A DNA stretch of 64,000 bases from an uncultured Spirochaetota bacterium (GTDB taxonomy: Bacteria > Spirochaetota > Spirochaetia > Treponematales > Rectinemataceae), in NCBI GenBank assembly GCA_903821875.1, contig CAIJMU010000056.1, forward strand, positions 1-64,000. Direction: 5' to 3'. The notes beneath the pieces are model-generated. The model made no database searches. It worked only from the letters and a program-made list of their open reading frames with translations, and was not told the origin of the DNA. A program made the position numbers and the translations under genes. Numbering within the stretch: the stretch's first letter is position 1; each line of letters begins with the position of its first letter. Shown here one piece after another: positions 47,537 through 56,774 of the stretch.

Positions 47537-48565
47537 TCAATCCATGTCGAAGCGGCAGGACCCACGATCGATGTAGGGCATCCTGGTCTTGAGCACCTGG
47601 ATGGGGCCGCCCGGCTGCTGGAGCCGCGCCTCGAGGAGGCTCCAGGCCATGGAGACCATGAGCCGCTGATCTATCTGCATTGTGTCTATCTTTCGTATGA
47701 AGGGGACACGGTAGTCCAGGACATCGCCTCCGGTGGCGATGAGCGAGACGTCCCGGGGAACCTGCCTGCCCAGGCGGGACAGGGCCTCGAGGACGTAGGC
47801 CGCAAAATAGTCGTCGTGGACGGCGAAGGCCGTGGGTGGCGCGGGCTGCCTGTAGATCTCCCCGATCCTGAAGAGGAGGGAGTCGAAGTCGGGAAGGTTG
47901 ACTGCCACCCGATGGCCATCGGAGTACTCGAGGCCGCTTTCATCCATCGCCTTGCGGAAGCCGAAAAACCGGTCATTGACGAGGGTCGGATAGTTCGGCC
48001 TCGGATAGTCCGCGTAGCCGATCCTCCGGTGCCCGAGATTGACGAGGCGCATGGTCGCCTCGTAGGAGCCCTGTACCTCGTCGGCGAGGACCGAAAAGAA
48101 CCGCGCCTGGTATTCGCTGTTGTTGATGATAATGACGGGGATGCCGACGGCCTCGAGTTCAGCGAAGAGTTCCGGGTCGGCGTAGTGGATGGCAAAGACA
48201 GCCCCGATCCTGGCTCCGGTGATCTCCTTGAACACGGACTTGGGAGTAGCGGTCGGGGGAATGTGGAGGATGATGGGATAGTACCCCATCCTGATGACCT
48301 CCTCCTCGAGCCAGGTCGCGAAGGGCTGGGAAAAGTTCCAGAGGTAGGGAAAGTCCTCCCTCTGGAGGATGCTCACATACTTGAAGCGCCGGGTCAGCGA
48401 GGGGCGGCTGGGGACGATTTTCTTGTACCCGAGCTCAGTAGCCAGATTCCTGACACGCTCGGCCACCGGTGCTGAGATCTTTCCCTTGCCCGCCAGTATC
48501 ATCGATACCGCAGCTACCGAGACTCCCGCAGCCTGGGCAAGGTCCTTCAAGGTTGTGCGATCCAT
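47537..48565 (-). CDS. LacI family transcriptional regulator
   Basis: A 342-residue LacI/GalR repressor: the N-terminal helix-turn-helix (TTLKDLAQAAGVSVAAVSMIL, residues 4-24) with hinge, and a sugar-binding core (AVFAIHYADPELF, VIIINNSEYQARF, PPTAFAVHDDYFAAYVLEAL). It sits beside the first copy of a 118-base regulatory element containing GGTTAA-N9-TTAACC, and that element recurs just before the sugar importer operon. So it probably represses itself and the catabolic operon and responds to the imported compound or its metabolite. No ribosome site precedes the ATG, and the -10 hexamer is nine bases from it, which hints at a leaderless transcript. Confidence 0.87.
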   Translation of the reverse strand: MDRTTLKDLAQAAGVSVAAVSMILAGKGKISAPVAERVRNLATELGYKKIVPSRPSLTRRFKYVSILQREDFPYLWNFSQPFATWLEEEVIRMGYYPIILHIPPTATPKSVFKEITGARIGAVFAIHYADPELFAELEAVGIPVIIINNSEYQARFFSVLADEVQGSYEATMRLVNLGHRRIGYADYPRPNYPTLVNDRFFGFRKAMDESGLEYSDGHRVAVNLPDFDSLLFRIGEIYRQPAPPTAFAVHDDYFAAYVLEALSRLGRQVPRDVSLIATGGDVLDYRVPFIRKIDTMQIDQRLMVSMAWSLLEARLQQPGGPIQVLKTRMPYIDRGSCRFDMD

Positions 48566-48570
48566 GAAAT

Positions 48571-48688
48571 GAATACTATATGCTTTCCAGCACTACGTCC
48601 AAGTTATGGTGGTTAATTCGTGGACTTAACCTGGCAATTTTAGCCTTTTGTTAATCAGGATTCGTGACAGATTTTCTGCTGTGCCTAC
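48571..48688. promoter_or_regulatory. Regulatory region copy 1 with LacI-type dyad
   Basis: 118 bases that recur without gaps 2,299 bases downstream (50870-50987); my hand count gives 89 of 118 identities. The dyad GGTTAA-N9-TTAACC is at 48611-48631. Toward lacI (minus) there is TTGGAC (48602-48597), 16 bases, TATAGT (48580-48575). Toward PIG-L (plus) the -35 is degraded to GTGACA (48664-48669) and the -10 region is poor. Confidence 0.75.
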
Positions 48689-48765
48689 GCAAGCGGCGGT
48701 CGGCTCCTTGTAATGGCCTGCGGCCAGATAGGAGACAATGCTATGGTAGCAATGTGGAGGAAGCC

Positions 48766-49461
48766 ATGAACGCGCGGAAAGCCCTACCCGCAATAGTCAG
48801 CAGCCTCAAGCAGCTTGCCCGGGAATCCGGCTTGACCGCCTTCCTCAAGGCTGCCCTCAGGTGGATGTACTATGTCGCAGTCACCATGCCTGCCAATGCT
48901 GCCTGTCAGGTCAGAGCCGCCGACAAGCTCATGATTGTTGCCCATCCCGATGACGAGACCCTTTTTTTCTCCCGGGAATTGATGGCTTCTTCAGGTTGGC
49001 TGGTGCTCTGCTGCACGAACGGTAGCAGGGCTGGGCGAGCCAGGGGGTTCCGGCGTGCCGGTACGCTCCTCGGTTTCCGCACCCTCATCTGGAACTATGC
49101 CGACGGCAATGAGGTGGAGATGGACGCGGACAGACTCTCCCGGGCGATCAGAGGCATCCTCGAAAAGCAGGAATGGACAGTCGTGGCCACCCACAACCAG
49201 GCGGGGGAGTACGGGCACTTCCAGCATCGGCAACTGCACCGCCTCGTCGCCGGGCTCAGCGCGGGGAAGCAGCTTCTTGTGCCCGCCGACTCTGAGATGC
49301 TGGAGAGCGAGGCGAATAGAGTCTCCCCCGAAGCCCTCGCCCGGAAGCGGGAAGTCATCGCTGCCTGCTACGGCACCGAAGCGGATCGGCTGAGCCGGCT
49401 GGAGCGCTATGTCCAGTACGAAGCGACAGTCAGCGTCGCTTATCCTGCCCTTGGATCCTGA
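48766..49461 (+). CDS. PIG-L/LmbE family deacetylase
   Basis: A 231-residue zinc-dependent N-deacetylase. The zinc motif AHPDDE begins with His60, and a third ligand lies in HNQAGEYGHFQH. Family enzymes remove acetyl groups from N-acetylglucosaminyl lipids, mycothiol precursors and similar compounds. GGAGG five bases upstream supports 48766. An N-terminal ~45 residues are hydrophobic/basic (LKAALRWMYYVAVTM), so it may be weakly membrane-bound. It is convergent with a glycosyltransferase and overlaps it by 22 bases; the two may act on the same glycan, though they are on opposite strands. Confidence 0.83.
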   Translation: MNARKALPAIVSSLKQLARESGLTAFLKAALRWMYYVAVTMPANAACQVRAADKLMIVAHPDDETLFFSRELMASSGWLVLCCTNGSRAGRARGFRRAGTLLGFRTLIWNYADGNEVEMDADRLSRAIRGILEKQEWTVVATHNQAGEYGHFQHRQLHRLVAGLSAGKQLLVPADSEMLESEANRVSPEALARKREVIAACYGTEADRLSRLERYVQYEATVSVAYPALGS

Positions 49462-50675
49462 AGCGCCTTGATCCCGAGCCGGCTTTCCTCAAGGAAGGCC
49501 TCGAGCTTGCCCGCATAGACTTCCAGGCTATAGTCCCGCTCCACCATGGCGCGGGCAGCCTTCGCGATGCCGATGCGAAAATCCGCGTCGTCGACCAGTC
49601 TCAGGATGCAGGAGGCCAGCTGGGCCGAGTCACCGGCCTGGAAGACGAGTGCATTGACCCCGTCCACGAGGCACTCACCCTGTCCACCGGTGATGGTTCC
49701 GATGACGGGGAGCCCGCTGGCCATGGCCTCCAGGAAGGTCAGACCGAAGCCCTCCTTGACGATGGAAGGAAAGACGAAGATATCGTGGTCGCGGTACACG
49801 GCAGGGAGGGCATCGTGGGCTATGCGACCCGCCAGGTCCAGGCGATAGCCGCTCTTGTTGCAGGCGCGGAGCTGCTCAACGTAGTCCTCTGGCCCGCCCC
49901 CCACTATCCGGACCTCGATGCTGGCCGGACCCCGATCGGCAGCCACGAGTTCGGCCGCCTCGAGGAGGGTATGCACCCCCTTCGAGGCCAGCACCTGCCC
50001 CACGTAGAGGACGCGGACAGGCTTTCCCAGTGAACCTGGCTCCGCCTTGCAGGGGAAGTCCGAGAGGGGAATACCTTGGTGGATTACCCTGGACCCGCTT
50101 AGCGGAAGGCCCTCGGCAAGCATGTCTGTCTTGAGGGACTGGCTGATGCAGGAGGAGGCGCCCAGATCGAGGGCCTGGGTCGTATTGCTTCGGAAGAGGC
50201 TATGGTCCAGTAGAAAGCCGAGGAAGGAGCGGAGGCTACCAGGGGGATAGCGCTTGGGAATAAAGAAACTTGCGCTGTCATCGTTGAAAATAAAGGCAAC
50301 AGGATAGCCTGCTCGCTGGGCACAGAGCGCCGGACCTATGCCGAGCCTCCTCTGGCTCCAGACAAATACCAGCTCGGGTTCGAAATCCTTCAGGACTACC
50401 TTGGTAGTCCTCGAGTTCCTGCGATCGGCGATCTTGCTGGGCCAGCGACGAAGGAGGGGTTTTTGAGAGTCCTCCCCGAAGGCACGGTAGAGTTTCAGGC
50501 TGCGGCTTACCGGAACGGACGAATCTCCATCCTTTGAATTCGCAAGTCGAAAATCGGAAGTCAGGACACGGATCTCATGCTGCCGGGCCAGGATATCCAC
50601 AATCTGTTTGCAGAGGAGCTCGGCGCCTCCAAGATAATGAGGAGGGTAGAGGTTGGAAACGATCAATATCCTCAA
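49440..50675 (-). CDS. Glycosyltransferase family 4
   Basis: A 411-residue GT-B fold glycosyltransferase. N-terminal NLYPPHYLGGAELLCKQIVDIL is the typical acceptor-side start, and the C-terminal donor domain has VRVLYVGQVLASKGVHTLLEA and the E-x7-E region EGFGLTFLEAMASGLPVIGT. It should transfer a sugar from an NDP-sugar, probably in surface polysaccharide or glycolipid synthesis. A TTG at 50675 with GGAG seven bases upstream is the best start; the upstream frame extension to 50741 lacks family sequence. No membrane segment. It may be read from the minus-side promoter of regulatory copy 2. Confidence 0.83.
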   Translation of the reverse strand: MRILIVSNLYPPHYLGGAELLCKQIVDILARQHEIRVLTSDFRLANSKDGDSSVPVSRSLKLYRAFGEDSQKPLLRRWPSKIADRRNSRTTKVVLKDFEPELVFVWSQRRLGIGPALCAQRAGYPVAFIFNDDSASFFIPKRYPPGSLRSFLGFLLDHSLFRSNTTQALDLGASSCISQSLKTDMLAEGLPLSGSRVIHQGIPLSDFPCKAEPGSLGKPVRVLYVGQVLASKGVHTLLEAAELVAADRGPASIEVRIVGGGPEDYVEQLRACNKSGYRLDLAGRIAHDALPAVYRDHDIFVFPSIVKEGFGLTFLEAMASGLPVIGTITGGQGECLVDGVNALVFQAGDSAQLASCILRLVDDADFRIGIAKAARAMVERDYSLEVYAGKLEAFLEESRLGIKALQDPRAG

Positions 50676-50869
50676 GACTCCACTCCGTTTAGCCTTATCG
50701 AGTAGTATAGGTCCCCAAGGCACAAGCTCGGACACCACCATACTATAGTCTGGGCTCGGAATGACAAGCTCTCTACCCCCCTAGGGTAGCTATGGCCGAT
50801 GGCGCACAGAGCCCTGATCCGCGGGGCCTTGGCCTCCGGGGTCTTTCCCTGCCAAGGGGTATCCTCAGG

Positions 50870-50987
50870 GAATACTCTAGGCATTCCCGCATTGGATTCA
50901 AGTTAAGTCGGTTAACTATTGGATTTAACCTGCCAAGATTAGCAGTTTGTTAATTAGGTTCCTTGACAGATTTTCTGTGGGGCTTAC
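50870..50987. promoter_or_regulatory. Regulatory region copy 2 with LacI-type dyad and operon promoter
   Basis: Second copy of 48571-48688. GGTTAA-N9-TTAACC lies at 50910-50930. On the plus strand TTGACA (50963-50968), 16 bases, TACTCT (50985-50990) leads to the UroD/ABC operon, with the dyad upstream of -35. On the minus strand TTGAAT...TAGAGT faces the glycosyltransferase gene. The rest of the 50676-51022 gap has a CCTTGGC...GCCAAGG inverted repeat (50827-50857) and a CTACCC...GGGTAG hairpin near 50776. Confidence 0.75.
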
Positions 50988-51022
50988 TCTGTTGTACCAA
51001 GCCACGAATCGTGGAGAACGAG

Positions 51023-52093
51023 ATGACAGCGAGAGAACGTTTCCTGACAGCCATCAATCGCGGAGTTCCCGACCGGGTCCCGATGTTCGATTTTCTCTTC
51101 CAGGAGCCCCTCTTCGAGCGGCTCATCGGACACAAGCCCGGGAGCTACAACGGACCCGATGCCCTCGAACTGGCCAAGAAGCTGCATCAGGATGCAATCT
51201 GGGTTCCCTTGGCAGGGTTCCAGGGCTATTCTCCCGAATGGATCGACGACAAGACCTACAAGGACGAGTGGGGAAGCGTCTTCGTGCGCTCCGAGGTCTC
51301 CTGGCCCATCGACTCCCCGATCCGCTACCCGATCAGCTGCAGGGACGACTTCGAAAAGTATGTCTGTCCCGATCCCCTCCTTCCCGGCCGCGACCTCGAC
51401 CTCCGTCAGACTATCGCCAACAACAGGGATTCCCAGCTCGCCATCACCTGTGGCATCCAGGGTCCCCTTACGACAGCCTGGCTCCTCATGGGCTTCGAGA
51501 ACATCAGCTTCGCCCTCTACGACGATCCCGACCTTCTGGAGTCTGTCTTCGCGATGTCCAACGACTTCTTCAAGAAGGCCGCGAAGATCGCCGTAGATTG
51601 CGGAATCGACGGCATCTGGGTCAGCGAGGATCTCGGAGATTCCCGCTCCGTGCTCTTCAGCAAAGACCTCTATATCAAGCACTTCTACCCCTACTTCAAG
51701 GACCTCGTGGACTATGTCGACTCCCTCGGCGTGCCGGCCCTCCTCCACTCCTGCGGCTGCATCTACGAGTACCTCGACCTCATGGCTGCCACGAAGATCA
51801 AGTCGATCCACCCGGTGCAGCGCACGGCGGGCATGGACCTGAAGCGGGTCAAGGCCGAGTACGGCAACCGTTTTTGCATAATTGGCAACATCGATTCCTC
51901 GCGGACCCTGCCCTACGGGACGGAGGAGGAGGTCAGGTCCGAGGTGCGCGAGGCAATTGCGGTGGCAGCACCCGGGGGCGGCTACATTCTGGCCTCCGAC
52001 CACTCCCTCCATGACGGGATTTCGGTGGAGAACATCACGGCGATGTTCGACGAGGGACTCAAGGCTGGCACCGCTATCTACGCGAGGAGCTGA
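51023..52093 (+). CDS. UroD/MtaA-type methyltransferase-like protein with zinc motif
   Basis: A 356-residue protein of the uroporphyrinogen decarboxylase superfamily (MTARERFLTAINRGVPDRVP is the typical start). It is not a decarboxylase: it carries HSCGCIYEYL at about 243-252, the His-x-Cys zinc site of cobalamin methyltransferases such as MtaA and of O-demethylase MTI proteins. Such enzymes move methyl groups between a substrate or coenzyme and a corrinoid protein. It is first in the LacI-controlled operon, with the ABC importer behind it. Similar genes near sugar importers are common and uncharacterised, so a demethylase role is a guess. Confidence 0.75.
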   Translation: MTARERFLTAINRGVPDRVPMFDFLFQEPLFERLIGHKPGSYNGPDALELAKKLHQDAIWVPLAGFQGYSPEWIDDKTYKDEWGSVFVRSEVSWPIDSPIRYPISCRDDFEKYVCPDPLLPGRDLDLRQTIANNRDSQLAITCGIQGPLTTAWLLMGFENISFALYDDPDLLESVFAMSNDFFKKAAKIAVDCGIDGIWVSEDLGDSRSVLFSKDLYIKHFYPYFKDLVDYVDSLGVPALLHSCGCIYEYLDLMAATKIKSIHPVQRTAGMDLKRVKAEYGNRFCIIGNIDSSRTLPYGTEEEVRSEVREAIAVAAPGGGYILASDHSLHDGISVENITAMFDEGLKAGTAIYARS

Positions 52094-55738: not shown

Positions 55739-55751
55739 GCGGGGAAGCGAC

Positions 55752-56774
55752 ATGAGTGCCATGCCATGCAGGGAGCGGGTGAAGAAAGCCCTCTCCTTCG
55801 ACTATCCCGACAGGCCCCCGATCTCCCACGCGATCCTCCCCTCGGCGCTGATCCGTCATGGCGAGGCACTCCAGAAGATCCTCGCGGAGGTGGAGGAGGA
55901 TTTCGGCTGGGGCCTCCTGCCGGACCTGCCGCTGGCTAAATTCCCTCCCTATTACAAAAAAGGGCGCAACAAGGATGGCTTCGGTGTAGTCTGGGAGAGC
56001 TCGGAGGACGGCGAGTACGGGATCCCCGTCGACAAGCCCCTTTCCGATTGGTCCAATTGGTCGGGTTTTGCCTGGCCGGATTTCGAAGTCAGGCCTCCGG
56101 CTTACCAGCTCTACTCCGGGCACATGATCGGTCCTGATCCGCGGTACTACTCGAGGGGCGGCTGGATCACCTTTTTCGAGACCCTCCAGGAACTTCGTGG
56201 CTTCGAGGATCTCCTGGCGGACATCGCGCTTGGCGAAAAGGCCGCCTTCGAGCTTCGCGACGCGATGATGGCGCATAACCTGCGTCTCATCGACAAGTTC
56301 CTCCTTCTCGACTACGACGGCATCCATTTCGCCGATGACTGGGGCACACAGAACGCTCTGATGATCAGCCCGACGCTCTGGAAGTCCTTTTTCCGGCCCT
56401 GCTACGAGGTCATGTTCGAGCGTGTGCGCGCAGCGGGCGTGGACGTACACTTCCACACCGACGGCTACGTCACCGACATCATCCCCGAGCTCATCGATCT
56501 GGGGGTCTCGGTGATCAACTGCCAGTCGAACTGCATGGGCAACGAGGAGCTGGGCCGCCGCTTCAAGGGCCGCATCTGCTTCCGGACCGACCTCGACCGC
56601 CAGAGGACCATGACCTACGGCAGCCCCGCCGAAGTGCGAAAGCATGTCGATGTGGTCTTCCACGCCCTCGGCTCGGAGCGTGGCGGCATCATCGCCTGCG
56701 GGGAGATCGGCCGCGACACGCCGCTCGACAACATCAAGGCGATGTACGAAGCCTTCATGGAATTCCGTTTCTGA
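55752..56774 (+). CDS. Second UroD-superfamily protein, altered metal site
   Basis: A 340-residue UroD-superfamily protein, 13 bases after the permease gene. It has the barrel core (CRERVKKALSFDYPDRPPI, HTDGYVTDIIPELIDLGVSVIN). At the position where the 51023 protein has His-x-Cys it reads HFHTDG, so the Cys zinc ligand is missing; Asp could replace it. So it may be a decarboxylase- or lyase-like relative, or a methyltransferase of another sort, working on the imported substrate. I cannot name a reaction. Confidence 0.72.
   Translation: MSAMPCRERVKKALSFDYPDRPPISHAILPSALIRHGEALQKILAEVEEDFGWGLLPDLPLAKFPPYYKKGRNKDGFGVVWESSEDGEYGIPVDKPLSDWSNWSGFAWPDFEVRPPAYQLYSGHMIGPDPRYYSRGGWITFFETLQELRGFEDLLADIALGEKAAFELRDAMMAHNLRLIDKFLLLDYDGIHFADDWGTQNALMISPTLWKSFFRPCYEVMFERVRAAGVDVHFHTDGYVTDIIPELIDLGVSVINCQSNCMGNEELGRRFKGRICFRTDLDRQRTMTYGSPAEVRKHVDVVFHALGSERGGIIACGEIGRDTPLDNIKAMYEAFMEFRF

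Follow-up and report, generated by a model that had tools for sequence, protein, structure and literature searches.

How does a divergent regulatory region come to stand twice, on either side of two unrelated genes, and which of the neighbouring genes does each copy serve? The question is raised by a locus of an uncultured Spirochaetaceae-type bacterium (genome of 4.68 Mb, here G000), in which a lacI-family gene and a carbohydrate operon point away from each other with a PIG-L family deacetylase gene and a GT4-type glycosyltransferase gene between them. We analysed this locus within a stretch of 64,000 nucleotides (the window), taken from the single 79-kb contig that carries both copies; the features are collected in Table 1. 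PIG-L and GT4 are convergent, and the 3' end of GT4 overlaps PIG-L by 22 bases. To the right of copy 2, the forward strand carries in order the genes for UroD, SBP, ABC ATPase, permease, UroD2, PfkB kinase and a mannitol-dehydrogenase-type protein. The history that we favour, with a probability of roughly two in three for the whole, is that a single ancestral region between lacI and the operon was duplicated, that PIG-L and GT4 were inserted between the copies, and that the old regulatory circuit was retained.

Table 1 Features of the locus, in positions of the window
Feature	Position	Strand	Remarks
lacI-family regulator gene (342 aa)	47537..48565	-	Pfam LacI + Peripla_BP_3; G003 orthologue 66% identical
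Duplicated divergent intergenic region, copy 1	48571..48688	+	89/118 gapless vs copy 2
lacI-facing promoter-like site TTGGAC-16-TATAGT, copy 1	48575..48602	-	Score 7.9, P 0.21 vs shuffles; alone not significant
Dyad GGTTAA-N9-TTAACC, copy 1	48611..48631	.	Exact; one of two genome-wide
PIG-L-facing decayed promoter GTGACA-16-TACGCA, copy 1	48664..48691	+	Score 3.1
PIG-L family deacetylase gene (inserted)	48766..49461	+	PF02585, E 1e-13; AHPDDE motif
GT4-type glycosyltransferase gene (inserted; likely TTG start)	49440..50675	-	PF13692 + PF00534
GT4's own promoter-like site TTGTCA-16-TAGTAT, beyond the repeat	50740..50767	-	Score 9.5, P 0.07 vs shuffles
Duplicated divergent intergenic region, copy 2	50870..50987	+	Homologous to G003 lacI-UroD intergenic region
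GT4-facing promoter-like site TTGAAT-16-TAGAGT, copy 2	50874..50901	-	Score 9.0, P 0.12 for repeat alone
Dyad GGTTAA-N9-TTAACC, copy 2	50910..50930	.	Exact
UroD/ABC operon promoter TTGACA-16-TACTCT, copy 2	50963..50990	+	Score 10.0; spacing and position match G003
UroD/MtaA-like methyltransferase gene, first of the importer operon	51023..52093	+	PF01208; MtaA/CmuA-like below cut-off; G003 orthologue 84%

An initial annotation had described the two copies as a gapless repeat at an offset of 2,299 bases, and realignment bore this out with the same number of identities. In-register dinucleotide shuffles (n = 2,000) gave a mean of 33 and a maximum of 51 identities out of 118, compared to the 89 observed, and the next-best gapless match of copy 1 across the whole window on both strands reached 48 of 118. 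Identity was mostly 15–16 in 20 bases within the repeat and at most 8 in 20 directly beyond both ends; homology ends sharply; on the lacI side it stops 5 bases short of the gene's start, and on the operon side close to the start of transcription. Searching the whole genome with copy 2 by BLAST returned copy 1 (E = 4.6 × 10−17), a 30-bp echo and one 17-base match at chance level. The echo (E = 0.48) lies upstream of a paralogous lacI (L042 5129–5156; G000:C16:13128–13155), where a promoter resembling those of the copies, TTGACAGAT, stands in a divergent region. A dispersed repeat family was rejected, since the whole-genome search held no third copy beyond this echo. The longest exact word common to the copies is 14 bases and covers most of the −35 hexamer and spacer of the forward promoter of copy 1; with so short a word, and with both copies within one contig, an assembly artefact is unlikely. 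Insertion of a transposon or integron with target-site duplication was also rejected, as the repeat measures 118 bp at 75% identity, compared to the usual 2–14 bp, and no transposase, integrase or recombinase gene lies between the copies, where PIG-L and GT4 stand alone. Remnants of the old genes beyond the copies were unsupported, both for a lacI 5' end left of copy 2 (anchored P = 0.04–0.19 in single comparisons and 0.12–0.20 with combined references) and for a UroD 5' end right of copy 1 (P = 0.09–0.61 and 0.51–0.64).

The initial annotation had further proposed that a single ancestral lacI/importer intergenic region was duplicated with the arrival of PIG-L and GT4, and this historical half of its reading is well supported by the layout of a relative, by the homology of copy 2 to that relative and by sequence distances. 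Relatives were searched in 59 genomes (this one and 58 others) and in further samples of the order, class and phylum. Orthologues of high identity were found only in a Spirochaetaceae MAG (JANYKC010000076.1, here G003), and the larger order, class and phylum samples together with a contig scan yielded no close orthologues besides these. In G003, lacI is directly divergent from the UroD/ABC operon, the arrangement that the annotation had suggested looking for, with a single 160-bp intergenic region and no PIG-L or GT4, whereas in the window the divergent arrangement is broken by the pair. Both modules have lacI, UroD, SBP, ABC ATPase, permease, a second UroD and PfkB in a common order, and the position and spacing of the operon promoter are identical. 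Apart from its one intergenic region, the G003 module differs in an extra gene before PfkB, in the genes upstream of lacI and in its dyad spacing. None of 1,000 shuffles aligned with the G003 region as well as copy 2 did; copy 1 alone aligned weakly (P = 0.18 against shuffles and 0.011 against genomic windows). A PIG-L/GT4 pair in place with no duplication, which the annotation had named as evidence against its reading, was found in none of the relatives searched. In paralogous modules of G000, G001 and G030, lacI is likewise directly divergent from the neighbouring gene across one region that carries a TTGACA promoter, the neighbour in G000 being a sugar-binding/ABC operon.

The direction of change was judged from distances and paralogues. 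The copies are 75% identical to each other and each about 55–59% identical to the G003 region, equivalent to Jukes-Cantor distances of 0.30 between copies and 0.59–0.69 from the copies to G003. Because the copies are nearer to each other than to G003, duplication in this lineage is favoured over loss in G003; the same distances could also arise through gene conversion from one copy to the other. The single-copy state is known from one genome, and one outgroup is thin evidence. Were the two-copy state ancestral, recombination between the direct repeats would have removed PIG-L and GT4 from G003 and left the two regions fused into one. Repeats in this orientation promote just such a deletion, and the orthologous operon occurs in only two of the genomes searched. 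We nevertheless consider this history improbable, given not only the distances but also the single-region layout of the paralogous modules and the absence of PIG-L from every relative searched. In addition, the deletion predicts a chimera with copy 1 on the left and copy 2 on the right, which is unseen in G003: at the 29 positions where the copies differ, G003 agrees with copy 2 at 13 and with copy 1 at 8, both scattered.

Somewhat better placed, if still unlikely, is a Campbell-type integration, in which a circle of ~2.3 kb bearing PIG-L, GT4 and the homologous region of a related strain entered by one crossover, such that the copies were different from the start. A single crossover produces direct repeats around the newcomer, with homology ending where the shared region ends, as observed, and it agrees with the lack of both transposase and integrase between the copies. 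Against it, no donor was found and the codon usage of PIG-L and GT4 falls within the range of their neighbours; on present data it is indistinguishable from duplication followed by divergence. At the thresholds used, PIG-L was without a homologue in both the 29 remaining family genomes and a phylum sample of 392 genomes, and the best plasmid match for a PIG-L donor (35%, Paenibacillus) was uninformative. The best homologue of GT4 is a paralogue (34–43%) in an exopolysaccharide-type cluster of this genome, with no other close one in the family. The match to this paralogue (L083 6361–7544; G000:C124:91360–92543) is split over two overlapping frames, which suggests a frameshift or sequencing error. 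Two functions for the pair were rejected: bacillithiol or mycothiol synthesis on scores far below cut-off (BshA 56 vs. 274, MshA 57 vs. 463, MshB 22 vs. 224), and anti-phage defence on the lack of a PADLOC match.

Promoters were scored with an approximate E. coli sigma-70 matrix made for this analysis, under which each site scores only marginally above shuffles; the argument is carried by the comparison of homologous sites, not by absolute scores. The initial annotation had described outward-facing promoter-like hexamers at either side of each copy, and three of these sites are acceptable. The fourth, the forward site of copy 1, is far below its homologues and degraded in both −35 and −10, scoring 3.1 compared to 10.0 at the homologous site of copy 2 and 10.7 in G003 (TTGACG-16-TAAACT). 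These scores indicate that the operon promoter persisted at the operon, where it has a use, and was lost in the copy that turns it towards PIG-L. No other good promoter was found before PIG-L, the best candidate (6.6) lying below the shuffle mean. The idea of one old and one new gene per copy is thus unsupported for copy 1, given the decayed PIG-L-facing promoter, and GT4 has a promoter-like site nearer than that in copy 2. Nothing points convincingly to copy 1 as the promoter of PIG-L; judging from the predicted promoters, the old assignments most likely persist, with lacI served by copy 1 and the importer by copy 2.

A wider sharing of function, with both copies bidirectional, LacI controlling all four transcription units and PIG-L and GT4 part of the sugar regulon, would agree with the exact dyads in both copies and with the score that the GT4-facing promoter of copy 2 still attains. 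It would also agree with the position of the longest identity block, which could reflect remaining constraint on the forward −35 and spacer of copy 1. Both hexamers of that promoter are degraded, though, PIG-L is preceded by no substitute and GT4 has a site of its own, and we regard such sharing as doubtful.

The dyad reported in both copies was confirmed as exact in each. Dyads of GGTTAA and TTAACC at spacings of 7–13 occur nowhere else in the 4.68-Mb genome, nor in three relatives, and G003 has none at these spacings. The dyad, 21 bp long, is an odd palindrome and has no central CG. Most LacI-type operators, in contrast, are even palindromes centred on CG, and 4% are odd (Ravcheev et al. 2014, PMC4052901); since odd ones occur, the form of the dyad does not exclude an operator. 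Its centres lie 56 bp from the lacI ATG and 103 bp from the UroD ATG, which fits local LacI-family divergons, where the operator is usually 30–140 bp upstream of the start codons and local autoregulation is common (PMC4052901). GGTTAA half-sites number three in the G003 region (P = 0.0002), two in the window region (P = 0.003) and two near a related lacI of G004 (P = 0.003), and are not enriched in the regions of most other homologues. This recurrence supports LacI, short of proof, as the protein that binds the dyad, which was probably a LacI site in the ancestor and may be one here, a plausible but unproven assignment.

A different role for the dyad, as the site of another regulator or as an A+T-rich upstream promoter element in a region kept for promoter reasons, is possible, and we hold it to be unlikely without dismissing it. 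Such a role would accord with the odd palindrome lacking a central CG and with a position upstream of the operon −35 instead of over the promoter. It would accord, too, with the LacI linker after the HTH (GYKKIVPSRPSLTRRFK; window 47537–48565), in which the canonical NxxARxL hinge-helix motif is missing; this non-canonical hinge and the odd dyad may, in turn, be connected. The over-represented half-sites beside related lacI genes in G003 and G004 argue for LacI instead, as does the confinement of the dyad to this locus, which a local regulator would predict. If LacI is the binder, it might also occupy both dyads at once and bridge the 2.3 kb, enclosing PIG-L and GT4 in a repressed loop, such that the duplication of the operator silenced or tuned the inserted pair; we give this extension very little credence.

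Under the favoured history, lacI and the UroD/SBP/ABC sugar operon of the ancestor would have diverged from one region of ~120–160 bp with back-to-back promoters and a GGTTAA dyad. In this lineage, the region would have been duplicated in direct orientation, with PIG-L and GT4, convergent and overlapping at their ends, separating the two copies. Each copy would have kept the promoter that faces its old partner, lacI for copy 1 and the operon for copy 2, and both would have kept the dyad, with the copy 1 promoter towards PIG-L decaying. GT4 would be transcribed from its own promoter and perhaps from that of copy 2 too. Autoregulation of lacI and control of the operon would therefore still work, through the kept promoters and dyads, from two separated sites.

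Like local LacI-family divergons (PMC4052901), the locus has a regulator divergent from a sugar ABC operon and a palindrome between genes; unlike them, it has the region in two copies that lie 2.3 kb from each other around two unrelated genes, and its palindrome is odd and without a central CG. With insertions flanked by direct repeats, whether from a single crossover or from duplication, it shares homologous direct repeats around a segment missing from relatives, and differs in having no mobility gene and in repeats that are a promoter region, 25% diverged. Literature searches on duplicated divergent promoters around insertions returned nothing relevant. As a gene insertion with promoter duplication, the locus is well documented but modest, with an interesting history and of an ordinary kind. 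It illustrates how a divergent regulatory region can take in genes and stay intact, as duplication leaves each old gene a complete copy, and the relative shows the likely pre-insertion state. As the four outward promoters diverged from one ancestor, loss of unused promoter function can be traced. Wider consequences would follow only if PIG-L and GT4 prove to be controlled by LacI.

Several further observations concern the old partners. MtaA/CmuA-like UroD proteins encoded at 51023–52093 and 55749–56774 flank the monosaccharide ABC importer with its PfkB kinase and mannitol-1-phosphate-dehydrogenase-like gene, and this set may, speculatively, serve the uptake and demethylation of an O-methylated sugar. 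Homologues of the UroD/MtaA-like methyltransferase number at least 34 in this genome and 34 in G030, some of them near LacI genes; in G000 this is a striking family expansion. Many LacI relatives (loci L002–L008, L072–L078 and L088–L090) likewise have a linker without the NxxARxL motif, and odd palindromes such as TGCTAAAGTTTAGCA (L088) occur in the regions adjoining them. Finally, no Shine-Dalgarno sequence is evident before the lacI gene of the window, and ~10 bases separate the predicted −10 TATAGT from its ATG (window 48565–48580), an arrangement that suggests a transcript with almost no leader; the orthologue in G003, by comparison, has AGGAGG.
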